Shown: positions 28,056-42,933 of the stretch, one piece after another | Layout of the letters: each line of letters opens with the position of its first letter | Position numbering within the stretch: the first letter of the stretch is position 1 | NCBI GenBank assembly: GCA_902521355.1 | Contig: CABYRT010000002.1 | Coordinates: 1 to 64,000 of the forward strand | DNA: 64,000 bases | Direction of reading: 5' to 3' | DNA from: an uncultured Pelagibacteraceae bacterium | GTDB taxonomy: Bacteria; Pseudomonadota; Alphaproteobacteria; Pelagibacterales; Pelagibacteraceae | Position numbers and translations under genes: made by a program | The notes under the pieces: generated by a model | Database searches by the model: none | Told to the model about the DNA's origin: nothing | Seen by the model: the letters and a program-made list of their open reading frames with translations, nothing else

Positions 28056-30169
28056 AAATATCTATACTTTTACCTTTTAAAGAAAATTTTTCACCTGAAT
28101 ACCCTGGTGCTGTTTCTCTTTTCATAAACGATATATTGAAAGTAAGCAAGTTTAAGAAAAATACAATAGTTTATGGAAGTACAAATTTTAAAAAAATTTT
28201 TGATCATAAATATTGCAATTTAAAAGTTGGAAAATATATATTTAAAAGTCAAAATAGAAAATATGTAGAGGAGTTTATAAAAAAAGAAATCGAAGTAAAT
28301 TCTGATATTATAGAAATCCATAACAGACCTATCTATATTAAATACTTGGAATATGCTTTAACAAATAAAAATTACGTTCTATATTTTCATAACGATCCAC
28401 TTGAAATGAATGGATCAAAATTGGTTGAAGAAAGAGTTGAATTAATAAGAAAAGTAAAAAAAATTATTTTTAATAGCAATTGGTCAAAAAAAAGATTTAT
28501 AAATGGTATAGATAAATTTTATCAAAATTCAAAAAAATTAATAGTTATTAACCAATCTGCAAGTAAAAAAAAAGTTAACTTAAAAAAAAAAAGTAAATTG
28601 ATATCATTTGTAGGAAAATTAAATAAAGCAAAAGGTTATGATATTTTTGGAAATGTTATAATAAAAATTTTAAACAAGTATCCAAATTGGAAATCGAATG
28701 TTTATGGTGATGAACCAAGAGAGAAACTTTTCTTTAAACATAGAAATCTAAATATAAAAGGGTTTAAAGAACATGATCAAGTTTTAAAAAATTTTGAGAG
28801 ATCTAGTATTACAGTAGCATGTTCTAGATGGGAGGAGCCATTTGGCAGAACTAGTCTTGAAGCATCTAGTAGAGGGTGTGCTGTGATAATAAGTAATAGA
28901 GGTGGCTTGCCTGAAACTGTAACTAATGCTGTCATTTTAAAAAAGCTTAATCAACAATCGTTATTTAATGAAATTGATAAATTAATTTCAAATAAATCAT
29001 ACAGATTAAGTTTGCAAAAAAATTCTTTAAAAAATTTCTATTTAACACATGAATTTGTGACTAAAAAAATAGATGAATATAGGAGTGAAATTATAAACAA
29101 AAAAAAAAAAATAAAAATTTCAAATAAAAGTAAAATTAAAATATTACATATTACAAACTTTAATGAAAGACACAATGGACGTCTTTTTTACAATACAGGA
29201 AGAAGAATTAATAATGGTTTTGTAAGACTTAAACATAGTGTTTTAACTTTGAGTGATAGAGATATTGTAAGTTATTATAGATCAGTAAGAGATCTTGATG
29301 GATCCAAAACTCTTAATAAAAAACTTTTAGAAGTAATTTCTAATTATTTGCCTGATTTAATAGTTTTGGGCCATGCAGATTTGATCAAAAAAGATACTCT
29401 GAAAATTATTAAAAAAAACTATCCAGATATTAAAATTGCACAATGGTTTTTAGATAGAATGGATGGTGAATGGAAAAATAATAAAAAAAGATTTTTAGAT
29501 AAAATAGATTTTATGGATTGTAGTTTTTGTACAACATCGCCAGATATTCTTAATTTCCCAAAAAGAAATAAGGTCTTTTATATTCCTAACCCATCAGATG
29601 AATCTTTCGAAAATTTAAATATATATAAAAAAAAAAAACTAAGAAATGACGTATTCTTCGCTATGTCTCATGGAGTGCATAGAGGAATATTAAAAAAGGG
29701 TAAATTTGATAAACGAGAAAAATTTATTGATAAGTTGATTAAATTAATACCTGATATCAAGTTTGATTTATATGGACTAAAAAATATACAACCAATTTGG
29801 GCAGAAAATTATAAAAATGCAATATCAAATTCAAAAATGGGAATTAATTTAAGCCAAGGAAAATCAACAAAATATTATTCAAGTGATAGAATTACACAAT
29901 TAGTTGGCAATGGTTTGCTTACATTTATAGATAAAAAAACTCAGTTGAATAAATTTTTTAAAAATAACGAAATTATATTCTATGAATCAATTAGAGATCT
30001 ATCAAAAAAAATACTAAAATATGCATATAATGATAAGCTTAGAATTAGAATAGCCAGAAATGGGCAAAAAAAATATTTAAGATATTTTAACTCTTTATTG
30101 GTAGCAGAATTTATAATTAACAAAACTTTTAACTTAAAATCAAAAAAATTTATTTGGGATAAAAAATAA
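28052..30169 (+). CDS. Bifunctional-looking glycosyltransferase: GT4-like N-terminal half and CgeB-like C-terminal half
   Basis: FVGKLNKAKGYDIF, CSRWEEPFGRTSLEASSRGCAVIISNRGGLPE; second half KIKILHITNFNERHNGRLFYNTGRRINNGF...SSDRITQLVGNGLLTFID. TTG start. Confidence 0.82.
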   Translation: MKISILLPFKENFSPEYPGAVSLFINDILKVSKFKKNTIVYGSTNFKKIFDHKYCNLKVGKYIFKSQNRKYVEEFIKKEIEVNSDIIEIHNRPIYIKYLEYALTNKNYVLYFHNDPLEMNGSKLVEERVELIRKVKKIIFNSNWSKKRFINGIDKFYQNSKKLIVINQSASKKKVNLKKKSKLISFVGKLNKAKGYDIFGNVIIKILNKYPNWKSNVYGDEPREKLFFKHRNLNIKGFKEHDQVLKNFERSSITVACSRWEEPFGRTSLEASSRGCAVIISNRGGLPETVTNAVILKKLNQQSLFNEIDKLISNKSYRLSLQKNSLKNFYLTHEFVTKKIDEYRSEIINKKKKIKISNKSKIKILHITNFNERHNGRLFYNTGRRINNGFVRLKHSVLTLSDRDIVSYYRSVRDLDGSKTLNKKLLEVISNYLPDLIVLGHADLIKKDTLKIIKKNYPDIKIAQWFLDRMDGEWKNNKKRFLDKIDFMDCSFCTTSPDILNFPKRNKVFYIPNPSDESFENLNIYKKKKLRNDVFFAMSHGVHRGILKKGKFDKREKFIDKLIKLIPDIKFDLYGLKNIQPIWAENYKNAISNSKMGINLSQGKSTKYYSSDRITQLVGNGLLTFIDKKTQLNKFFKNNEIIFYESIRDLSKKILKYAYNDKLRIRIARNGQKKYLRYFNSLLVAEFIINKTFNLKSKKFIWDKK

Positions 30170-31006
30170 ATGTTTTCAATTATTATTCCAACATATAATA
30201 ATTTAAATTATCTTAAAATTTGCTGTAATAGTTTAAAAAAAAATTCAGAGTTTAAAAATGAATTAATATTACACATTAATGATGGAAGCGATGGATCATT
30301 AAAATATGCTAAATCAAATAATATTAAATTTACTTTTTCAAAAAATAATATTGGATTATGTAGTTCTGTAAATTTAGCTGCTAAAAAATCAACAACAAAT
30401 TTTATTCTTTATGCACATGATGATATGTATTTTTGTCCTGAGTGGGATAAAATTCTCAAAGAAAATTTAGATAAACTAAATACAAAATTATTTTATTTAT
30501 CTGCAAGTATGATTGAACAAAATGGTGGTCATATAAAATATGATTGTGGGTCCGATTATAATAATTTTGATGAAAAAAAACTACTAGAGAATTTTAAAAA
30601 TTTTAAAAGTAGGGATTTTCAAGGTTCTCACTGGGCACCTCATTTAATTCATAAAGAAATATGGGAAAAAATTGGTGGATTTAGTGAAGAATTTAATCCC
30701 GGTGTAGGATCTGACCCTGACTTAAATATGAAATTATGGATTGAAGGTGTTAGAATTTTTAAAGGGATATCAAAATTTAGAGTATATCACTTTGGATCTG
30801 TCTCTTTAAGAAAAAAATCTCATTTAAAAAAAAACAAAGGTTCTAAAACTTTCTTAAAAAAATGGGGTATCACAACATCTTTTTTTAAAAAATATTATTT
30901 AAGATCTGATTCTGAATATTTTGGCCCTCTTGATGAACCAAAAAAAAATGTTAATTTTTATTTTTCTTTGTTGGGGTGTAAATTAAAATATTTTTTTACA
31001 AATTAA
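30170..31006 (+). CDS. Family 2 glycosyltransferase
   Basis: FSIIIPTYNNLNYLKICCNSL, LHINDGSDGS, LYAHDDMYFCPEW. Confidence 0.9.
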   Translation: MFSIIIPTYNNLNYLKICCNSLKKNSEFKNELILHINDGSDGSLKYAKSNNIKFTFSKNNIGLCSSVNLAAKKSTTNFILYAHDDMYFCPEWDKILKENLDKLNTKLFYLSASMIEQNGGHIKYDCGSDYNNFDEKKLLENFKNFKSRDFQGSHWAPHLIHKEIWEKIGGFSEEFNPGVGSDPDLNMKLWIEGVRIFKGISKFRVYHFGSVSLRKKSHLKKNKGSKTFLKKWGITTSFFKKYYLRSDSEYFGPLDEPKKNVNFYFSLLGCKLKYFFTN

Positions 31007-31949
31007 TTTTATTTAATGCATTATTTTTAAATATATTTGCCTCTCTAATATATCTTCTAACCATTTGTGTTGATTTATGACCTGTCATGGCCATTATGCT
31101 CCGTTCATTAGCGCCCGATTCTGCAGCAACTGTGGCAAAACCTGATCTTAAACTGTGACCAGCAAAATTTTTATTTTCGATTCCTGCTAAATTTAAATAT
31201 TTTTTCATCAATAAAACTACTGATTGGTCACTTAATCTTTTATCTGTTAATGATAAACCTTTTGAAAATCTTCTAAAAATAGGTCCAGACTTAATTTTAG
31301 AAATTTCTAACCATTTTTTTAGATTTGTAACAGGACAGTAAATTTGATTATCAAAGTAGGGTAGTCCTTTAATCATTCCTTCTCCGAATTGGTCAGTTTT
31401 TGATCTTTTAATATTGATTTTTAGACCCTCAGGAACAAATTCTAAATCCTCATGATCAATTGAAATGAGCTCAGTTCTTCTAAAGCCCCCTCCAAAGCCA
31501 ATTAAGATTATTGATTTATCTCTTAGTTTTTTAATTTCCTTATATTTTTGATCATTTATTACATTAATAATTGATTTTAAATGATTGATTAGTATAGGTT
31601 TTTTACCTTTCTGAATGCTTCCTTTGACCCTTCTTATTCCCATTAAATTTTCAACGATGATTGGATGTTTTGTGTCTAGATAATGCCCTTTAAGCCTATG
31701 AACCATGCTTATTGATACTAATCTTCGTCTTAAAGTGCTTATTTTTGAGTTTTTAGAGAGATGGGTTAGGTATATGGAAACTATTTTTGGTTCTGTTGGT
31801 AAAGAATTTAATCCATGCTTTGAGCAAAAAGTTCCAAAGTCTTTAAAGTCAGATTTATAAGCTCTTAAAGTATTGTTTGCCTTTGAGCTTTTGAGGTTAT
31901 TCAAAGTTGCTTCATGAAGCGATTTTAGGTCTGTTGTCAGTTCATTCAT
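30996..31949 (-). CDS. Tyrosine recombinase/integrase
   Basis: Catalytic residues visible: GGGFRRTELISI (R), KTD (K), HSLRSGFATVAAESG (HxxR), GHKS (H), RRYIREA (Y). Confidence 0.95.
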   Translation of the reverse strand: MNELTTDLKSLHEATLNNLKSSKANNTLRAYKSDFKDFGTFCSKHGLNSLPTEPKIVSIYLTHLSKNSKISTLRRRLVSISMVHRLKGHYLDTKHPIIVENLMGIRRVKGSIQKGKKPILINHLKSIINVINDQKYKEIKKLRDKSIILIGFGGGFRRTELISIDHEDLEFVPEGLKINIKRSKTDQFGEGMIKGLPYFDNQIYCPVTNLKKWLEISKIKSGPIFRRFSKGLSLTDKRLSDQSVVLLMKKYLNLAGIENKNFAGHSLRSGFATVAAESGANERSIMAMTGHKSTQMVRRYIREANIFKNNALNKINL

Positions 31950-31952
31950 ATA

Positions 31953-31987
31953 ATTACTATTGATAACAATTAATTATCATTAGTAAT
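31953..31987. repeat. 35-bp imperfect inverted repeat at the integrase 5' end (att/dif-like site or operator)
   Basis: ATTACTATTGATAA-CAATTAA-TTATCATTAGTAAT; 13 of 14 arm positions complementary. Confidence 0.6.
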
Positions 31988-32032
31988 ATATTAAGTGATT
32001 TTAAATGTCAAATAAAATAAAACAAATAATTA

Positions 32033-32212
32033 ATGACTTTAGATGGAGAAATTCCTACAAGCTATTTTTTAATAATATCTATAGGTTTAACTATACTGAG
32101 TTATTTGGTTTACAAGAAAAATGGGAAATCTTTAGAAGTGTATTTCTTATCTGTTTTGACAATAATTTTCTATTTATCCTATTTTATTCTAATATTTGTT
32201 GGACCTAGATAG
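32033..32212 (+). CDS. Small 59-aa two-TM protein (alternative frame to ORF 32005-32208)
   Basis: MTLDGEIPTSYFLIISIGLTILSYLVYKKNGKSLEVYFLSVLTIIFYLSYFILIFVGPR*; two hydrophobic segments with a basic loop. Confidence 0.55.
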   Translation: MTLDGEIPTSYFLIISIGLTILSYLVYKKNGKSLEVYFLSVLTIIFYLSYFILIFVGPR

Positions 32213-32249
32213 TTTATTAACGCTATTCACAGCTGTTAAAAACCCATAA

Positions 32250-32279
32250 TTATCAACTATAAAGTGATACTAATATAAT
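32250..32279 (+). promoter_or_regulatory. Candidate sigma70-type promoter for the structured RNA (TTATCA - 18 bp - TATAAT)
   Basis: Perfect -10 TATAAT at 32274-32279; -35-like TTATCA at 32250-32255. Confidence 0.45.
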
Positions 32280-32285
32280 TTGCAC

Positions 32286-32492
32286 TGTGATAATCTCTTA
32301 AATGAATTAAGAGGCAACTCTTAACTGACCATCTGGGGAAAAATCGAGAGATTCAAGCCCAGAGGGCAGAAAACCACGCAGAGTAGCGCTAAAATTGCGG
32401 GGTGGAAGGCATGGCGGTAGCGCATACAACGACGTGCCAAAAAACTACTGATCTTTGTACCTGAAAAGGTGCAGAGATACAGAGTTTTTTTT
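32286..32492 (+). ncRNA. Structured non-coding RNA candidate, class not recognised (5' end approximate)
   Basis: Locally GC-rich against an AT-rich background; consecutive hairpins with GNRA loops GCAA (32314-32317), GAGA (32346-32349) and GAAA (32463-32466); ends in an intrinsic terminator. Confidence 0.75.
32448..32492 (+). terminator. Rho-independent terminator of the ncRNA
   Basis: CTG-ATCTTTGTACCT GAAA AGGTGCAGAGAT-a-CAG (15 pairs including 2 G-U, 1-nt bulge), then AG and T8. Confidence 0.88.
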
Positions 32493-32498
32493 CTTTAT

Positions 32499-32774
32499 AT
32501 GATCCTTAAAGGCACAAAATTTCAAATTAAAGTCTGGAAATACTTAAAGACTATTAAAAAAGGTAGTGTTTTAACATATTCTGACGTCGCAAAGGGTATT
32601 AAAAAGCCTGGAGCCATTAGAGCTGTAGCTAATGCTATTGGAAAAAACCCATATGCTCCCAAAATACCTTGCCATAGAGTAATCAGGTCTGATGGATCTC
32701 TTGGAGGATATTCAGGCAAAGGTGGTATAAAAACTAAGAAAAAACTGCTCAAATCTGAAGGAATTTTGCTCTAA
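32499..32774 (+). CDS. ogt: Methylated-DNA-[protein]-cysteine S-methyltransferase (short, C-terminal domain only)
   Basis: GTKFQIKVWKYLKTIKKGSVLTYSDVA, VANAIGKNPYAPKIPCHRVIRSDGSLGGYSG. The track's GTG start at 32469 lies inside the terminator. Confidence 0.9.
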   Translation: MILKGTKFQIKVWKYLKTIKKGSVLTYSDVAKGIKKPGAIRAVANAIGKNPYAPKIPCHRVIRSDGSLGGYSGKGGIKTKKKLLKSEGILL

Positions 32775-33304
32775 AAGCCAGCAATACCAACGTTTTTTTT
32801 AAATTTTAAAACATTTAGTAATACAATTTTAAATTCCCCTATTGGTTGCAGCTTATAAATTGAAATCTCTAAATTAGCCCTATATTTGGGGCATTAAATG
32901 CTATATTCATAAATTGCATTACTTAGGTAATTATTAAGAAAAATATATTTTTTTTGTATATTTATATGAATTAATATTAAGAAATTTTCATATTAAATTA
33001 AAAATAAGTTTTATTATCAAAAGTACTATTTTAAAATTGCATGAAAATTGTTGATTTTATTGAATTATTGTACCCTATCTCATAGTCCAATTTTATCGTC
33101 TATTTTTTTTAATTCAAATAACTGCGTATTATTGATTATTTTTAATTTACAGCTTTTATTTAATTGAAAATTTTATAATTTTACTGCATTTTTTTTTATT
33201 TTATATAAATTTAATTTTTGTTTAAATATTTAATAAAATATAACAAATACAATAGTTTACAGATATTAATTAAAGTATTATATGAATATATAGTACATAT
33301 ATAT

Positions 33305-34153
33305 TTACTTATATTTAAGATAATATTCCCTTTTAAAAACATATAATCCTGAAGAAACGATTGTGAAAAGTCCAATAAAAGTATATTTATCAGGAAAATC
33401 CGAAAACACATAATATCCTAAAATAAGGTTAGTAATTATCTCGAAATAACCAAATGGTGCTAATTTTGAAGCATCAGCGTAACGAAGAGATAAAATGATT
33501 AATATATGGCCTAAACAGGCAAATATACCCATCAGAGCCATCCAAGACCATTGAATTGGAGTAGGATTAATCCAAACAATAGGAACAAAAAAAGATGCGA
33601 TAACAGCCCCTACTACGCCCGTAATCAGCAATGTGAGTAAAGGACTATCTGTTGAATGCAATTTTCGAGTTATTATAAGATAAAAGCCGTAAAAACAGCC
33701 AGTTCCAACAGCTGCTAAACTAGCAAGATTAATCTCTATAATTCCAGGTCTTATAACAACTAAAATACCAAAAAAACCGACTAATACAGCAGTCCACCGT
33801 CTATATCCGACTTTTTCGTTAAGTAAAAATGGAGAAAGAGCAGTTGTGACTAATGGAGCAACGAACGCCAATGTTAATGCTTTTGCCATTGAGATTATAG
33901 AAATGGAGTAAAAAAAACATATATTTGCAAAAAATAAAGACAAACCTCTAATTATTTGTAGTTTGATATTTTGAGAAAACTTCAATTGCTCCCTATAAAA
34001 TAAAAACATAAAAAAAACTGTGAATACAACTGTAAAAAAATATCTAGCCCACGTTATTTGAAAAAAAGATAAATCCGAAGATAAGTATTTAGCTATGGCA
34101 TCCATAAAGGGCAAAACCATCCATGCGGATAAATTTAAAAATATTGCTTTCAT
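33305..34153 (-). CDS. EamA/DMT-family transporter
   Basis: Ten-TM EamA duplication, LTLAFVAPLVTTALSPFLLNEKVGYRRW. Confidence 0.9.
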   Translation of the reverse strand: MKAIFLNLSAWMVLPFMDAIAKYLSSDLSFFQITWARYFFTVVFTVFFMFLFYREQLKFSQNIKLQIIRGLSLFFANICFFYSISIISMAKALTLAFVAPLVTTALSPFLLNEKVGYRRWTAVLVGFFGILVVIRPGIIEINLASLAAVGTGCFYGFYLIITRKLHSTDSPLLTLLITGVVGAVIASFFVPIVWINPTPIQWSWMALMGIFACLGHILIILSLRYADASKLAPFGYFEIITNLILGYYVFSDFPDKYTFIGLFTIVSSGLYVFKREYYLKYK

Positions 34154-35053
34154 TTAAGCAAAATATTTAAGAGCAATAAATACTGTTATTGGCACTGTAA
34201 CCAATGACATTAAAGTAGAAACAACAATTGTGCTGGAAATATTATCTACATTTTTTTTTGGTGAATACATTGAAGCAACCAAATAACATAATATCGCACT
34301 AGGCATAGAGGATTGAATTAGTAAAACTCCAGCTGCAAAACCAGATAAATTAAAAAATTTTATAATAAAAAAACCTACAATAGGACCCAGGATTACCCTG
34401 CCAATTGATGTTATAATTGAGTCTCTCAAAGAAAATACTTTCATTTGAGTTAATGCAATACCTAAAGACATTAAAATCATTACAATCATTGCATAAGATA
34501 AAAGCATTGTTGTATTAATAACAAAAACTGGCATTTCCTTGCCGTAGTATAAAAAGATAACGGTCAAAATAATTGTATAGAAGGAAGGACTTTTTGCGAT
34601 TATTGAAAAATCAAATTTTCGCTTTGCAAGAAATATATTAGCAGTAAAATGTAAGAGTATTACCAAAGATGATATAGCTGCAGCTACACCCATTCCCAAT
34701 TTACCGTACGCAAAAAGACAGATTGGTATACCCATATTACCAGTATTAGGTAAAAAAAAAGTAGGTAATTCTCTAATATAATCTTTTTTCATAAGAATTA
34801 AAAAAACAAGACCAATTAAAGCAAATGATGAGAGTAATATTAATGCGTAAATAAAATATTCTACAAATATATCAAAAGTAACACCTGTAGATGTAAGAGA
34901 GAAAATTACTAAAGCTGGAGTTCCAAAATTTCCAGCATAAGATGTTATAAACGAAGTATCGAAATTTGGATTTTTTTTCCCTAATAAAAAACCAATTCCA
35001 ACAATAAAAAATACAGGGAATAGAACTTCAAAGAGCTTTAAATAAAGTTCCAT
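34154..35053 (-). CDS. AEC (auxin efflux carrier) family transporter
   Basis: VLFPVFFIVGIGFLLGK, LPNTGNMGIPICLFAYG, LIQSSMPSAILCYLVASMY. Confidence 0.9.
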   Translation of the reverse strand: MELYLKLFEVLFPVFFIVGIGFLLGKKNPNFDTSFITSYAGNFGTPALVIFSLTSTGVTFDIFVEYFIYALILLSSFALIGLVFLILMKKDYIRELPTFFLPNTGNMGIPICLFAYGKLGMGVAAAISSLVILLHFTANIFLAKRKFDFSIIAKSPSFYTIILTVIFLYYGKEMPVFVINTTMLLSYAMIVMILMSLGIALTQMKVFSLRDSIITSIGRVILGPIVGFFIIKFFNLSGFAAGVLLIQSSMPSAILCYLVASMYSPKKNVDNISSTIVVSTLMSLVTVPITVFIALKYFA

Positions 35054-36351
35054 TAAAAAAGTCTTAATAATACAGGGTTTTTAATAATATTTAAATTTGA
35101 TTTAAAAGATTTAATACATTTCTGATAATCCTTTTCCAAAGATTTGTGAGTTATAATCACAATAGAAGCAGTTTTATTTTTATTATTTGGTATTTGTATT
35201 AATCTTTGAACGGATATTTTGTGTTTAGCAAATTTTTTTGTGATTTCAGATAGAACACCCGGTTTATCTTTAACTTCAAGCCTTATATATAAAGCATTTG
35301 AATAATTATCAGTATTATATATTGAAGGAGATTTTCTTTTATTATCAGAAATCCCAAAAGGGTATTTGATATTTCCACGTAAAATTGACAAAAGATCAGA
35401 CATTAAAGCAGATGATGTCGGACCGGGCCCTGCACCTTCTCCTTGTAAAACACTCTCCCCTACTGGATTACCTTCAATTATAACAGCATTCATTACACCA
35501 TTAACATTTGCGATGTAAGTATTTTTTTTAATTAAACACGGATGAACTCTTTCAAATAATTTATTATTAACAATTTCTGTTATTCCCAATAATTTAATTT
35601 TATAATTTAATTGATTTGAAATTTCTAAATCCTTGTATTCTATATTTTCAATACCCTCCATTAAACATTTTGAATTTGATACTTTATTATTAAATGCTAA
35701 AGCAGATAGAATTTTAACTTTAGCTAAAGCATCGTAACCATTTAAATCTAATTTTGGATTGCCTGGTTCAGCATAACCTAATAGTTGAGCTTTTTTTAAT
35801 ACAGTTGAAAAGCCAGACTTTGTTTCTTCCATTTCAGATAATATATAATTACAAGTGCCATTTAATATTCCATACACTTTACTTATTTTATTAGTTGCTA
35901 GTCCTTCTTTAATAGTTCTTAATACAGGGATTCCACCTCCTACTGACGCTTCAAATTCTAAATTAACTTTATTTTTTTCAGCAAGTTTAGAAAGGTTATT
36001 ACCGTGTTTAGAAATTAATGCTTTATTAGGAGTTACAACATGAATTTTATTCTTAAGTGCAAATTCTACAATTTTTTTAGATACACCATCAGATTGACCA
36101 ATGGCTTCAATTAAAATATCAATTTTATTATTTTTAAAAATTTTAAAGGGATCTTTATAAAATATTTTCTTATTAATTCTAAATTTTCTTTTTTTGTTAA
36201 TATTTTTAGCTGAAATTGCAGAAACAGAGATAATTTTTCCAGTTTTTTTTAGAATATCTTTTTTTTTCGTATTTAATTCATTATAGAGATAATTACCAAT
36301 CTGCCCCAATCCAACAATTGCTATATTAAGCTTTTTAGTCATATCAATCAT
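35053..36351 (-). CDS. hom: Homoserine dehydrogenase
   Basis: NIAIVGLGQIGNYLY, FEASVGGGIPVLRTIKEGLATNKI, GILNGTCNYILSEM, C-terminal ACT domain. Confidence 0.96.
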   Translation of the reverse strand: MIDMTKKLNIAIVGLGQIGNYLYNELNTKKKDILKKTGKIISVSAISAKNINKKRKFRINKKIFYKDPFKIFKNNKIDILIEAIGQSDGVSKKIVEFALKNKIHVVTPNKALISKHGNNLSKLAEKNKVNLEFEASVGGGIPVLRTIKEGLATNKISKVYGILNGTCNYILSEMEETKSGFSTVLKKAQLLGYAEPGNPKLDLNGYDALAKVKILSALAFNNKVSNSKCLMEGIENIEYKDLEISNQLNYKIKLLGITEIVNNKLFERVHPCLIKKNTYIANVNGVMNAVIIEGNPVGESVLQGEGAGPGPTSSALMSDLLSILRGNIKYPFGISDNKRKSPSIYNTDNYSNALYIRLEVKDKPGVLSEITKKFAKHKISVQRLIQIPNNKNKTASIVIITHKSLEKDYQKCIKSFKSNLNIIKNPVLLRLF

Positions 36352-36550
36352 CTAAACTTGGAAAGCTACTATTTTTTCCATAATTAATAATTTTATTTTT
36401 AAAATCATCAAAAGAAATATTTTTATCAATATCTAAATTTGGTTTTTCAACCATATCATCATTTTTTTTCTTTAAAAAAGAACCAAAGTTTTGGTTAGAA
36501 CAATTATTTATAAATAAAAAAATTAATAAAATTATCAGTATTCTCATCAA
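36344..36550 (-). CDS. Small putative lipoprotein
   Basis: MMRILIILLIFLFINNCSNQN lipobox-like; 68 aa. Confidence 0.6.
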   Translation of the reverse strand: MMRILIILLIFLFINNCSNQNFGSFLKKKNDDMVEKPNLDIDKNISFDDFKNKIINYGKNSSFPSLDD

Positions 36551-37569
36551 TTTAATCCTTCGTCAGACTTATATCCAAATAAAATGTTCATATTTTGAAC
36601 AGCCTGTCCACTACCACCCTTAATCAAATTATCTATTGCTGACAATATAATAATTTTATTCTTATATTTACTCTCACACACGGAAATATAACAGTTATTT
36701 GTGTTTATTACTTCATTAGTTCCTAAAAAAGTATTTGGTTTCAAAATTTTAATGAATTTATGATTTTTGTAATATTTTTTTAAAAAAGAATAAATTTTTT
36801 TAAGAGAATCATTTCTTTTTAGATCTAAATACATAGTAGTTAATATTCCTCTAAACATTGGTGAAAGATGAGGTGTAAATTGAAATTTTACCTTTTTGCC
36901 AGTTTTTATTTTTAGTTCCTGATCAATTTCTGAATTGTGTCTATGAAACGCTAAACCATAAGCACTCAATGTCTCATTTAAAAATTTGTTGTTATATTTT
37001 TTATGAATATTTCTGCCTGCACCTGAATAACCAGATTTAGAGTCAATTATGATATTGTTTGATTTAACAATATTTTTATTAATTAACGGTACTAGGGGTA
37101 ACAAAATTGATGTTGGATAACAGCCTGGACAAGAAATTATTTTATATTTCTTAATACTTTTATTATTTAACTCAGGTAAAGAATAAATACTTTTTTTTAT
37201 TAATTTAGGAGCATTGTGTTTGATTTTATACCATTTGAGGTAATCACTAGATGATTTAAGTCTAAAATCTGCTGCTAAATCAATTAAAATATTTTTATTA
37301 TTTAAATTTTTTGAAATTTTTTGAGCCTCTCCATTGGGTAATGCAGTAAATACAACATCAACACTGTTTAATAACTCTTTATTAAATTTAACAATATTTG
37401 GTAGTTTATATTTATTGAAGTATTTATCATAAGAACTAATTTTCTTACCTACAGAGGTATCACCGCAAAGATATTTAATTTTAACTCTTTTATGTTTGGT
37501 TAATAATTTGACCAATTGAATACCTATGTATCCAGTAGCTCCAGCAACTAATGCATTAATCATAGACAT
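36547..37569 (-). CDS. argC: N-acetyl-gamma-glutamyl-phosphate reductase
   Basis: GATGYIGIQLVKLL, SCPGCYPTSILLPL, DSKSGYSGAGR, FTPHLSPMFRGIL. Confidence 0.96.
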   Translation of the reverse strand: MSMINALVAGATGYIGIQLVKLLTKHKRVKIKYLCGDTSVGKKISSYDKYFNKYKLPNIVKFNKELLNSVDVVFTALPNGEAQKISKNLNNKNILIDLAADFRLKSSSDYLKWYKIKHNAPKLIKKSIYSLPELNNKSIKKYKIISCPGCYPTSILLPLVPLINKNIVKSNNIIIDSKSGYSGAGRNIHKKYNNKFLNETLSAYGLAFHRHNSEIDQELKIKTGKKVKFQFTPHLSPMFRGILTTMYLDLKRNDSLKKIYSFLKKYYKNHKFIKILKPNTFLGTNEVINTNNCYISVCESKYKNKIIILSAIDNLIKGGSGQAVQNMNILFGYKSDEGLN

Positions 37570-37602
37570 AATGTAATATAACAGTTGTTTAATAAAATGG
37601 TA

Positions 37603-38034
37603 TTATCTTTTAGAGAATTGATAACTTCTTCTAGCTTTTGCACGACCGGGTTTTTTTCTCTCAACTGATCTAGAATCTCTCGTGGTAAGTTTTTCTTTTC
37701 TAAGTGTTGGTTTTAGATTTTCATCAAATTGTAAAAGTGCTCTTGATATACCATGTACCAATGCTCCTGCTTGACCTGTATGTCCACCACCAACAACTTG
37801 AGATCTAACATCGTATTCTGTAGATTGATTGATAATTTCAAAAGGTCTTAGTATTTGCATTTTATGAGTAGCTCTTGTGAAATAATCATCTAAATTTTTA
37901 CCATTAACGTAAATTTTACCAGTCCCCTTTTTTAACCAAACTTTTGCAATTGAAGTCTTTCTTCTACCTGTTGCATATTTTGCATCTTTAAAATCTAATT
38001 TTAGTTTTGAAGATGTAGATTGATTTGTTTCCAT
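37603..38034 (-). CDS. rpsI: 30S ribosomal protein S9
   Basis: YATGRRKTSIAKVWLKKGTGKIYVNG, KKPGRAKARRSYQFSKR. Confidence 0.98.
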   Translation of the reverse strand: METNQSTSSKLKLDFKDAKYATGRRKTSIAKVWLKKGTGKIYVNGKNLDDYFTRATHKMQILRPFEIINQSTEYDVRSQVVGGGHTGQAGALVHGISRALLQFDENLKPTLRKEKLTTRDSRSVERKKPGRAKARRSYQFSKR

Positions 38035-38035
38035 T

Positions 38036-38494
38036 TTAATTTCTTACTATATTTTTTGAATTAAGTTTTCCGATCTCAATTACTTCAGGGTTTTGTGATG
38101 AATGAGGATGATCCGATCCTGAATAAACCTTAAGTTTAGTTAGTTGTTTTTTAGCTAAAGGACCGCCAGGTAACATTCTTTTTACTGCCATTTTTAAAAT
38201 TTCACCTGGTTTTGAAGATTGTAATATTTCAGGTGTTGTTTCTTTAATTCCGCCGGGATGACCCGTATGTCTATAATATTTTTTATTTGAAAACTTATTT
38301 CCTGTAAATTTTAATTGATCTACGTTTTTAACAACAACAAAATCTCCACTATCCATATGAGGAGTAAATGTTGCTTTATTTTTTCCTCTAAGAATTTTTG
38401 ATACAACAGTTGCTAGTCTCCCAACTACAGCTCCAGTTGCGTCAATTTCAAACCATTTACTATTAAGGTCATCTTTTTTAAGAAATTTAGTCAT
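38036..38494 (-). CDS. rplM: 50S ribosomal protein L13
   Basis: WFEIDATGAVVGRLATVVSKILRGKNK. Start refined to MTKFLKKDD at 38494 rather than 38533. Confidence 0.97.
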   Translation of the reverse strand: MTKFLKKDDLNSKWFEIDATGAVVGRLATVVSKILRGKNKATFTPHMDSGDFVVVKNVDQLKFTGNKFSNKKYYRHTGHPGGIKETTPEILQSSKPGEILKMAVKRMLPGGPLAKKQLTKLKVYSGSDHPHSSQNPEVIEIGKLNSKNIVRN

Positions 38495-38562
38495 AATTGC
38501 GGGATTAATACTTATAAATCGATATATTGTCAAACGATATACAGTTAGAACTTAAGTCATTT

Positions 38563-38649
38563 TTGATAGTTTTAACTAATAAATAGGCTATAAATAAGCG
38601 ATAATATTTGTTTATAATAAATCTTAAAAATTTAAACAGGAGCAACTAA
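38563..38649 (+). promoter_or_regulatory. metY leader: promoter-like elements and SD-sequestering complementarity (possible SAM-responsive leader)
   Basis: TTGATA 38563-38568, TATAAA 38589-38594; TTTGTTTA 38607-38614 complementary, with two G-U pairs, to TAAACAGG 38633-38640, which overlaps the SD. Confidence 0.35.
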
Positions 38650-39978
38650 ATGTCAGATAAAAAAGGAATGGATCCTAAAACATATAAATTTGATACCCTC
38701 AGTTTACACGCAGGATATCAACCTCATAAAAATGCTGGTTCGAGACAAGTACCAATATACCAAACAACTTCATATCTATTTGATGATGTAGATCACGCGG
38801 CAGCATTATTTAATTTAGAAAGGGGTGGACATATTTATAGTAGGATATCAAATCCGACAGTTGCCGTTTTAGAAGAAAGAGTTGCTTCATTAGAAGGTGG
38901 AACAGCTGCACTTGCTACATCGTCTGGTATGAGTGCAATATTTCTTGCAGTAATGACTCTTTGTGAAGCAGGAGACCATTTAGTTGTATCATCTCAGCTT
39001 TATGGAGGAACTGTAAATTTATTTAGGTTAACACTTCCAAAATTTGGAATTAAAACAACTTTTGTAAAACCAAGAGACACAGAGGGATTTAAAAAAGCAA
39101 TTCAAAAAAATACAAAAGGTATTTTTGGAGAACTTGTTGGTAATCCAGGAAATGAAATAATGAATATGCCTGAGATTGCTAAAATAGCTCACGACGCAGG
39201 TATTCCTTTAATGGTAGATGCAACTTATCAAACACCTTATTTATGTAAACCTATAGAACACGGTGCTGATATCGTAGTTCATTCACTTACTAAATGGATG
39301 GCAGGACATGGATCTTCAATGGCTGGTATAATAGTTGAAGGTGGTAAGTTTGACTGGATGCAAAATGATAAATTTCCAACAATGACACAACCATATGAAG
39401 GTTATCATGGATTATCTTTTGCTGAAGAATTTGGACCAACAGCTTTTACAATGAAAGCAAGAGCAGAAGGTATGAGAGATTTTGGTCCTTGTCTAAGCCC
39501 TCAAAATGCTTGGAATGTGTTACAAGGTATAGAGACACTTTCTGTCAGAATGAAAAAACATTGTGAGAATGCTGAAAAAATGGTCGAGTATTTATTGGGT
39601 CATGAAAGTGTTGCTTGGGTTTCACATCCAAGTGTACCAGATCATCCTGATCATGATTTAGCAAGCAAATTATTGCCCAATGGTAAAGGATCAATGATAG
39701 CATTTGGTATTAAAGGAGGAAAAGCTGCTGGTGAAGCATTTATTAATAACGTTAAACTTGCTTCTCATTTAGCAAATGTTGGTGATACACGTACATTAGT
39801 AATTCATCCAGCATCAGCTACACATTCTCAAATGGATGAAGCTACATTAAAATTTGCTGGTTTATCCCATGATATGATAAGATTATCTGTCGGTATTGAA
39901 GATATAGATGATATCAAAAATGACTTTGAAAATGGATTTAGAGCTGCTAGGAAACCTAGACTCGTATCCAATCAATGA
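38650..39978 (+). CDS. metY: O-acetylhomoserine aminocarboxypropyltransferase/sulfhydrylase
   Basis: FDTLSLHAGYQPHKNAGSRQVPIYQTTSYLF, VVHSLTKWMAGHGSSMAGIIVEGG (PLP lysine). Confidence 0.96.
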   Translation: MSDKKGMDPKTYKFDTLSLHAGYQPHKNAGSRQVPIYQTTSYLFDDVDHAAALFNLERGGHIYSRISNPTVAVLEERVASLEGGTAALATSSGMSAIFLAVMTLCEAGDHLVVSSQLYGGTVNLFRLTLPKFGIKTTFVKPRDTEGFKKAIQKNTKGIFGELVGNPGNEIMNMPEIAKIAHDAGIPLMVDATYQTPYLCKPIEHGADIVVHSLTKWMAGHGSSMAGIIVEGGKFDWMQNDKFPTMTQPYEGYHGLSFAEEFGPTAFTMKARAEGMRDFGPCLSPQNAWNVLQGIETLSVRMKKHCENAEKMVEYLLGHESVAWVSHPSVPDHPDHDLASKLLPNGKGSMIAFGIKGGKAAGEAFINNVKLASHLANVGDTRTLVIHPASATHSQMDEATLKFAGLSHDMIRLSVGIEDIDDIKNDFENGFRAARKPRLVSNQ

Positions 39979-40787
39979 AGTTTCAGGTAAATAATAACGA
40001 GGTTTATGCTTCTACGGGTGGTAGACCATTCGATAAAAATAAACCATTAATAATCTTTGTGCATGGAAGTGGACTAACTCATATGACATGGGTTTTGCAA
40101 ACAAGATATTTTGCGTTCCATGGATATAGTGTTTTAGCTTTAGATATGCCAGGTCATGGATTGTCAGGAGGAGAAAGTTTAAAATCAATTGAGGATATGG
40201 CTGATTGGGTTAGTGATGTTATTGATTCAGTAGGATACAAGGAAGCCTCTTTAGTTGGTCATTCTCAAGGTTGTTTAGTTACTGTGGAGTGTACGGCGAG
40301 AAATCCTGATAAAATAAAAACTTTAAGTTTAATGGGTGGAGCTGGTGCAATTCCGATGAATCCTGAATTATTATCTTTAGCGGAAAATAATGATCCTAAG
40401 GCCGTTGAACTAATGATGGACTGGGCACATGGGCCAGCTGGCCATTTTGGTGGTCATCCTGTGCCAGGTTTATATCATATTAATACAGGTTCAATGTTAG
40501 CTAAAACTAGAACAATAAAAAATACTCTCGGTGTAGATTTTAGAGCATGTGATAATTACAAAAATGGTTTTGAGGCTGCAAAACAAATTAAGATACCTAC
40601 CCTTTCTATACTTGCAACAGACGATAAAATGTGTCCAGTAAAAGAGGGTAAAAAACTAGCTAATTTAATTGAAGGAAGTCAAATAGATATAATAGATAAT
40701 TGCGGACACATGATGTTGTTAGAAGAAGCAGATAGAGTATTAAATGTTTTAAAAAAATTTATTACAACAAATTATCCAGCAAATTAG
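39975..40787 (+). CDS. Alpha/beta hydrolase
   Basis: IFVHGSGLTHMTW, LVGHSQGCLV (GxSxG), LDMPGHGLSGG, C-terminal NCGHMML. Confidence 0.92.
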   Translation: MKFQVNNNEVYASTGGRPFDKNKPLIIFVHGSGLTHMTWVLQTRYFAFHGYSVLALDMPGHGLSGGESLKSIEDMADWVSDVIDSVGYKEASLVGHSQGCLVTVECTARNPDKIKTLSLMGGAGAIPMNPELLSLAENNDPKAVELMMDWAHGPAGHFGGHPVPGLYHINTGSMLAKTRTIKNTLGVDFRACDNYKNGFEAAKQIKIPTLSILATDDKMCPVKEGKKLANLIEGSQIDIIDNCGHMMLLEEADRVLNVLKKFITTNYPAN

Positions 40788-40806
40788 TAATTGCAAATTT
40801 GCATTT

Positions 40807-41916
40807 ATGAAAAAAAATTTTAGATTTTTTGATAATAGACAAAAATATTTACTTTTCGTTACAACAACTAACGAAAAGAATAAAATTGCTGATGCGTTAA
40901 AACCTATTGTTCAAAAATTAAAACCAAAATTTCCAGCATTAAAAATATTTGATGCAGGTATGGGTGATGGATCATTATTGATGAGTGTAATGAGGCAATG
41001 TCATCAGAAACTGCCTCAAATCCCTTTACTAGTAAGTACAAAGGAAATAAGCATGGAAGATGTTAGATTAGGACTTGAAAAGCTTCCAGATCGATTTATC
41101 GAACATAAAAACACAGTATTTGTTATATCAAACCTAAATTATGTTGAATCCACTGCACTCAAATCAAATGACAAAAAAAAACAAAAAAAAATGAATTGGA
41201 AAATTGTTAAGTTAAAAGGTAATTCTTCACTAGATTTTTCAAATCAATTAAGAAAACTTAATCAAGAATTTTTAAGTAAAAAATGGCAAATAGAGAGAAA
41301 CCCTAAAAATGGTAATCCTACATATAAAGAACCTTCAGTTATAGTGATTTATAGAAAAGATCAGGAATTTTCATTAAAAAATGTTATTCCAAAAAAAAAT
41401 AATGGGAAAAACAGTTACGACTTAATCATTGCATCTCAACCTTATAGATCAAGAATATCTGCAGAGAAAAAAGTAAAGTATGTAATTGATCCAATGATAA
41501 AATCGTTAGATAAGAAAGGTAAATTGGTGGTAGTTCATGCATGTGGAAATGATCCAGGAAATAAAATTATTAAGAAAATCTGGCCAAAAGAAAAGCCATT
41601 TCCTTCTCTATACAATTCAATAATAAAATATATAAAAAATAATACAGACAATGAAATTTTGAAAAATTTAAAATTTAATAAAAAACAAACTATTAAATAT
41701 GTCCTGCGTGCATTACCGAATGAAATTAGCGGTGGTATTGCTACTTCATTAATATTTTCAGCATGGAATGCCGCGGTGTATGTTAACCAAATATCAGATG
41801 AGCAAATAATGAATGCAGAAAGAAAAAAATATTACCAAAAAGTTGTAAAAGATATCGTCAATAAAAATAAAGGATTATATTTTAACAATGAATTATTTGT
41901 TATTGAAAAAAAATGA
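40807..41916 (+). CDS. SAM-dependent methyltransferase-like protein
   Basis: Motif I-like IFDAGMGDGSLLMSV; YDLIIASQPYRSR; KKGKLVVVHACGNDPG. Confidence 0.6.
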   Translation: MKKNFRFFDNRQKYLLFVTTTNEKNKIADALKPIVQKLKPKFPALKIFDAGMGDGSLLMSVMRQCHQKLPQIPLLVSTKEISMEDVRLGLEKLPDRFIEHKNTVFVISNLNYVESTALKSNDKKKQKKMNWKIVKLKGNSSLDFSNQLRKLNQEFLSKKWQIERNPKNGNPTYKEPSVIVIYRKDQEFSLKNVIPKKNNGKNSYDLIIASQPYRSRISAEKKVKYVIDPMIKSLDKKGKLVVVHACGNDPGNKIIKKIWPKEKPFPSLYNSIIKYIKNNTDNEILKNLKFNKKQTIKYVLRALPNEISGGIATSLIFSAWNAAVYVNQISDEQIMNAERKKYYQKVVKDIVNKNKGLYFNNELFVIEKK

Positions 41917-42933
41917 TCAACTAAATCTATTCTTGTACAAAAAATATAATGATGATGTTATCAATAATATTGAACTAAATTGGTGCAAAGACGCTACTAA
42001 AATACTGGCACCAGACAAAACGGTAAAAATTCCCAATAAAATTTGTAATAATATAATCAAACCTAAAATAGATACAGCTTTAAATAAATAAAAAATTTTA
42101 TTCCGATAAGTTATATATGAAACCACTATGAAAATAATGAATATTAAATAAGCTAAATTTCGATGTAAATATTGAACTAGTGATGGATCACTAAAAACAG
42201 ATAATTTAAATAAATTAATATATTTATTGTCATCTGGAAAATATGAATTACCCATTAGCGGCCAAGTGTTATAAATTTTTCCTGCATCCATACCTGAAAC
42301 GAATGCACCAATAATAATTTGTAAGAAAATTAATAATAAAAAAAATTCAGGTATATAATTATTAATTTTTTTATCATTAATATTTGAATTTATTAAACTT
42401 AAATAATTCCAATAAATTAAAGATAAAATAATAAATGCAAATAAAAGGTGAACTGACAACCTAAAATGACTTACATCTATATTATTCACTAGACCACTCT
42501 GGACCATGTACCAACCTAAAAATCCCTGAAAACAAATTAAAAAAAAGATAAAATAAAAATTATAAATTTTTTTAACGCCTAATTTGATAGAAAAGAAAAT
42601 TAAAGGTATCAGAAAAGCTAAACCAATAACGCGCCCAAAAAATCTGTGTGCCCACTCCCACCAAAATATCACTTTGAATTCACTTAAAGTCATTGAATAA
42701 TTTTGAAGCTTAAATTCAGGTATTTGCTTATAAGCTTCAAAATAAGCTATCCAAGCATCATTGTTAATTGGTGGAAAAAAGCCTTTAAAAAATTCCCATT
42801 CAGTAATTGATAGACCAGAATCTGTAAGTCTTGTTAAACCTCCAACAACTATCATTGCTGAGATCAAAATAAACATAATTAGCAACCAATTAGATATGTA
42901 TATTCTGTATTTTGTATTTATTTCGGTATACAT
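41917..42933 (-). CDS. ctaA: Heme A synthase (COX15/CtaA)
   Basis: VVGGLTRLTDSGLSITEWEFFKGFFPP, EWAHRFFGRVIGL, VSHFRLSVHLLFA. Confidence 0.95.
   Translation of the reverse strand: MYTEINTKYRIYISNWLLIMFILISAMIVVGGLTRLTDSGLSITEWEFFKGFFPPINNDAWIAYFEAYKQIPEFKLQNYSMTLSEFKVIFWWEWAHRFFGRVIGLAFLIPLIFFSIKLGVKKIYNFYFIFFLICFQGFLGWYMVQSGLVNNIDVSHFRLSVHLLFAFIILSLIYWNYLSLINSNINDKKINNYIPEFFLLLIFLQIIIGAFVSGMDAGKIYNTWPLMGNSYFPDDNKYINLFKLSVFSDPSLVQYLHRNLAYLIFIIFIVVSYITYRNKIFYLFKAVSILGLIILLQILLGIFTVLSGASILVASLHQFSSILLITSSLYFLYKNRFS

Follow-up and report, generated by a model that had tools for sequence, protein, structure and literature searches.

Results

The locus and its assignment to IMES-2

The window, by which we mean the whole 64,000-nt stretch of Pelagibacteraceae DNA analysed here, carries a short RNA gene on its forward strand, preceded by a divergent recombinase gene and a small ORF and followed by an MGMT-like gene, which is the order found in genus g1. 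When the full window was searched with cmscan and Rfam 15, this gene matched IMES-2 (RF02035) with 162.9 bits against a gathering cut-off of 54.7 (E = 5.8e-43), and the match covers model positions 1-141 of 141 without truncation. Apart from four tRNAs, no other Rfam family exceeded its threshold in the window, and the source genome (31 contigs) has a single IMES-2 copy. Sharing with the family all four hairpins, the conserved loops, the full-length match and the SAR11/marine origin, and deviating from it in nothing, the locus is a copy of an already known RNA class in a SAR11 genome. Coordinates of the individual features are collected in Table 1.

The IMES-2 motif was reportedly first described by Weinberg et al. 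in 2009 from marine metagenomes, and its transcript is said to be highly abundant in the sea. It is also mentioned in a remark on contamination, one passage of a squid genome paper (PMC6962438). Structured RNAs have been described in Ca. Pelagibacter ubique HTCC1062, the SAR11_0636 element being one example; like IMES-2 they are GC-rich and intergenic, one of them was judged likely to be an independent ncRNA, and the motifs described in the sections cited here do not include IMES-2 (PMC2704228).

The original prediction, made from the sequence before any database search, had proposed a functional structured RNA from a genome of the SAR11 type, distinct from RNase P, tmRNA, SRP RNA and 6S RNA, and in this it was right: RF02035 matches instead of these families, and the covariation described below agrees. 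It had left two possibilities, an undescribed class or a little-known marine one. The RF02035 match refutes the former and makes the latter correct, IMES-2 having been catalogued from ocean metagenomes; since the prediction itself had named a significant match to a known family as the result that would remove novelty, the claim of a new RNA class fails. What our analysis adds to the Rfam model is a kissing helix between P3 and P4, a promoter, a terminator and a pattern of loss.

Table 1. Features of the IMES-2 locus in window coordinates
Feature	Position	Strand	Basis
Upstream tandem element, degenerate in the window (TTATTAACGCTATTCACA)	32214..32231	+	alignment
GTGATA, -35-like element	32264..32269	+	80/98 distinct upstream regions, 2 after shuffling
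GATAAT, -10-like element (relatives: TGNTA at about -12)	32289..32294	+	sequence conservation
IMES-2 RNA core (RF02035)	32300..32440	+	cmscan, full length
Hairpin P1, 7 bp, GNRA loop (GCAA)	32307..32324	+	Rfam consensus; 100% of cells paired, 4 pairs with both-side changes
Hairpin P2, conserved internal loop (GAAA/CAAG), capped by P2b	32325..32369	+	Rfam consensus, covariation
Hairpin P3, 8 bp, 15-nt loop	32373..32403	+	all 8 pairs with both-side changes
Kissing helix, 5' side, GCGCUA in the P3 loop, pairs with UAGCGC	32386..32391	+	covariation, columns 93-97
Hairpin P4, 9 positions, 13-nt loop	32408..32438	+	Rfam consensus; 5 pairs with both-side changes
Kissing helix, 3' side, UAGCGC in the P4 loop	32418..32423	+	covariation, columns 129-133
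Long terminator hairpin, then T run	32440..32492	+	folding; homologue conservation

Fold and covariation

On the plus strand, region 32286-32492 folds at -72.3 kcal/mol compared with a shuffled mean of -46.1 +/- 4.2 (z = -6.3; none of 200 shuffles reached this). For the minus strand z is only -4.9, which agrees with the predicted orientation, and the core 32300-32440 folded alone gives z = -4.0. As had been noted, the block is GC-richer than its surroundings (0.43-0.53 versus about 0.2-0.3 upstream).

The proposed covariation check bore out the helices strongly. The evaluation covered 39 pairs of the Rfam structure and five of the kissing helix described below, 44 in all, in 92 distinct homologues: 94.1% of the cells are paired and 33 of the 44 pairs show changes on both sides, a level reached by none of 500 shuffles, although the alignment was itself fitted to the tested structure and favours it somewhat. 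Doubly changed cells number 483 versus 122 in the shuffles, and sliding the structure by 1-3 columns makes the paired cells collapse to 34-43%. IMES-2 is a tightly folded RNA under structural selection.

The first four hairpins of the original prediction lie where it had placed them and equal the four of the Rfam consensus. The P1 loop remains GNRA in distant genera (GCAA, GCGA, GUAA), and the P2b loop is GAGA or, in some homologues, GCAA; thus two of the three predicted GNRA tetraloops are conserved, while the third, in the terminator hairpin, is not. Both-side changes occur in 9 of the 11 pairs of P2 and in all four of P2b. Columns 124/145 in P4 form a conserved non-standard position, never a standard pair, with G.A in the window copy. 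The third stem, predicted in two pieces, is present but forms a single stem of 8 bp whose large loop pairs with the loop of P4.

This loop-loop contact is evident from covariation. In alignment A4, columns 93-97 and 129-133 are paired in 96.6% of cells and contain 18 doubly compensated cells versus 2.2 expected, with none of 500 shuffles reaching this. Slid versions are at most 64% paired. A one-step shifted register, columns 94-98 with 128-132, is paired in 98.0%, and these two overlapping registers are the best paired of all 172 helices of 5 bp that unpaired columns could form. The loop hexamers change together, giving GCGC/GCGC, GCAC/GUGC, GUAC/GUAC, GUGC/GCAC and UCGC/GCGA types. P3 and P4 would be locked by this helix of 5-6 bp. 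Because heterotypic variants (GCAC with GUGC) occur, a contact between P3 and P4 is favoured over like-with-like dimers; it may nevertheless join two molecules instead of forming within one. The RF02035 model has no P3-P4 pairing, and covariance models cannot hold pseudoknots; the kissing helix is an addition to that model.

In purine riboswitches, adjacent hairpins are likewise joined via loop-loop pairing. The likeness, in that complementary loops hold two adjacent helices together, is one of geometry only: IMES-2 differs in having neither a closing P1 helix around the pair nor an attached regulated gene.

Promoter, upstream element and terminator

Judged by the promoter and terminator signals, the IMES-2 RNA is probably about 190 nt long, starting at ~32300 and ending at ~32490-32492. 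By the promoter, then, its start probably lies downstream of the predicted 32286. Nor does the TATAAT at 32274, suggested as the start signal, hold up, as it is absent in close relatives; the conserved promoter consists of GTGATA and GATAAT. In homologues the consensus RGTGATA sits at about -36, and TG.TA is present in 89 of 98 upstream regions, mostly at -12 to -10, compared with 41 after shuffling. At the other end, a hairpin stands directly before at least five T in eight positions in 83 of 95 homologues, and most of the remainder have a hairpin and a pyrimidine-rich tail.

Further upstream, relatives share an element arranged in tandem, TTATCCCCA..ATTCACA, around positions -87 and -75; it is kept even where the upstream gene is different. 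Its TTATCC occurs in 66 of 98 upstream regions versus three after shuffling. Since exact matches to the full tandem motif in 14 genomes coincide with IMES-2, the element has the appearance of a regulatory site devoted largely to IMES-2. We also considered whether the TTATCCCCA/ATTCACA tandem might represent DnaA boxes near the origin. The g1 locus (30000-42000 in the window; about 1330000 in G015:C1) is at the cumulative GC-skew maximum, nearer the terminus, so this reading has nothing beyond resemblance in its favour. Genes point to the locus from both sides, as expected near a replication terminus.

Distribution, neighbourhood and loss

IMES-2 is present in 200 of 397 Pelagibacterales genomes and in 75 of the 151 well-completed ones, with one match per genome among those listed. 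Many complete genomes of the genus of HTCC1062 are without it. Copies in genera g2 and g8 are divergent, scoring 62-95 bits with the Rfam model; a new model, R2, built on 32 diverse copies, lifts them to 90-104 bits and recovers genus g2, which an earlier narrow model with strict filters (R1) had missed. Searching the negative genomes with the enlarged model, unfiltered at the empty site and genome-wide, disclosed no hidden divergent copy. Applied to 386 genomes sampled across the class, R2 matched only three, all of them known SAR11 carriers. A pattern built on the invariant P1 hit at least 80 named contigs among the matches listed, all labelled Pelagibacteraceae, Pelagibacterales or Pelagibacter; the same pattern gave zero matches in viral contigs, and nothing similar to IMES-2 was found among phage records. 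Within these samples IMES-2 is confined to SAR11 (Pelagibacterales).

The genes around IMES-2 change from genus to genus. In g5, g6 and g9 it lies downstream of mnmA, in g2 by SNase/transglycosylase and SRAP genes, and in g8 by RmuC and SelO; it is a stand-alone gene independent of its neighbours. The original prediction had stressed the position beside an integrase, and this adjacency is real in genus g1. It is also incidental, because the integrase-MGMT neighbourhood persists in g1 genomes lacking IMES-2 and the RNA adjoins other genes in other genera. Where it is lacking in g1, the MGMT-like gene directly follows the small ORF or another ORF. In a pair of sister genomes, 315 nt between the aligned flanks in G040, which has IMES-2, correspond to 34 nt in G003, which does not. 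Such empty sites are clean: promoter, RNA and terminator are missing together.

On a tree of one protein, Hom, from which we infer the losses, the presence of IMES-2 changes at least 3-4 times, and the RNA is found in both outgroups and in early g1 branches. IMES-2 thus looks ancestral in Pelagibacteraceae, and its distribution is best read as the outcome of several losses; a lost copy may at times have been regained. With about half of the well-completed genomes lacking the gene, IMES-2 is dispensable.

Several observations concern the surroundings. The downstream gene (32499-32774) encodes an MGMT DNA-binding domain (PF01035) that stands alone and measures 91 aa; because its PCHR cysteine motif is retained, we regard the product as a short alkyltransferase and not as a PWHR-type ATL protein. 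Between it and an EamA-like transporter gene lies a very AT-rich noncoding stretch of about 530 bp (32775-33305), and relatives show similar gap sizes. The rplM-metY intergenic region of the window (38400-38750) has no Rfam riboswitch match; that of HTCC1062 carries a SAM-V riboswitch according to Table 1 of PMC2704228. In several genera (the L053, L054 and L055 flanks and the window), IMES-2 neighbours include DNA-repair-type genes, namely MGMT, SRAP and RmuC, which is possibly a coincidence.

Discussion

We consider the best explanation to be a stand-alone IMES-2 RNA of ~190 nt, with GNRA loops on P1 and P2 and a P3-P4 kissing contact, that acts in trans bound to a protein or a complex; its probability is, in our estimate, roughly 0.55. 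IMES-2 would be transcribed alone, from its conserved promoter to its terminator. P1 and P2 would carry the GNRA loops and the loop-loop helix would hold P3 and P4 side by side, so that a compact folded RNA could act on a protein or large complex as a scaffold, inhibitor or decoy. Such fold-based, protein-bound action is preferred to antisense pairing because nearly all loops are both conserved and engaged, no free, variable seed was evident and searches of the order found no Hfq. It could just as well be a target RNA that a conserved loop binds.

Known regulators offer little guidance to the partner. Hfq (PF17209) was found in none of 24 Pelagibacterales genomes, CsrA (PF02599) in none of 20 and 6S RNA (RF00013) in none of 40, while controls, including Caulobacter for 6S RNA, were recovered; these absences are as judged by Pfam or Rfam models and could reflect divergence instead. 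A Hfq-dependent sRNA and a CsrA-titrating sponge are accordingly disfavoured. With CsrA and 6S RNA undetected along with Hfq, no partner can be named, and RNA polymerase or the ribosome is an open guess.

Two of the alternatives also have IMES-2 acting in trans. If it were an antisense sRNA, the P3/P4 loops (GUAGCGC-type) or the internal loops would pair with mRNAs, the mutual complementarity of P3 and P4 keeping the loops closed until a target competes. Promoter and terminator signals of its own suit such a role, as do complementary loops, some of them self-complementary, that could open and re-pair. On the other hand, the loops co-change so as to remain complementary to each other, as expected for an internal contact, the conserved internal and GNRA loops point to a fold, and the order has no detectable Hfq; we find this account unlikely, if worth keeping in mind. 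Less plausible still is that IMES-2 stands in for 6S RNA as a regulator of RNA polymerase where 6S RNA is unrecognisable. The two are alike in being stand-alone, single-copy genes of similar size, and RF00013 is unmatched both at the locus and in the order, but successive hairpins joined by kissing loops do not make a long hairpin with a central bubble, and half of the genomes miss both RNAs. Replacement in a complementary pattern was likewise rejected: as 6S RNA is absent from every genome tested, there is no anti-correlation between the two.

The remaining alternatives tie IMES-2 to its neighbours in genus g1, and both are already contradicted. It is very improbable that the RNA is a cis-regulatory leader, an attenuator or riboswitch, of the MGMT-like gene, even though the two share a strand, the terminator ends just before the start codon at 32499 and synteny is constant within g1: the neighbours of IMES-2 differ among four neighbourhoods, and MGMT-like genes of g2 and of g1 genomes lacking IMES-2 have no such leader. 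Least probable of all is that it belongs, as attachment site or cargo, to a mobile element of the adjacent tyrosine recombinase (PF00589). The recombinase gene, 350 bp away in g1, and the patchy presence of the RNA suggest this, but the recombinase side stays next to MGMT without IMES-2, other genera carry IMES-2 without a recombinase, each listed genome has a single copy, viral contigs (by pattern search) and phage records have none, and the tree fits old presence followed by losses.

As the discovery of a new RNA class, then, the finding does not stand; the class was known, and the useful additions to it are the P3-P4 kissing contact, the layout of the promoter and the pairs of genomes marking loss. 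A far-reaching idea, which we regard as a long shot, is that an RNA-protein particle specific to SAR11 and built around IMES-2 exerts global control of transcription or translation where 6S RNA, Hfq and CsrA are not detectable, and that the repeated losses of IMES-2 mark ecological shifts within the group. IMES-2 is an orphan RNA carried by bacteria that rank with the ocean's most abundant, and its function can now be approached through transcript ends that can be mapped, a loop-loop contact that can be mutated and an upstream control element that looks largely gene-specific. Close relatives that differ in IMES-2, such as G040, a carrier, and G003, which lacks it, provide natural pairs for comparison.
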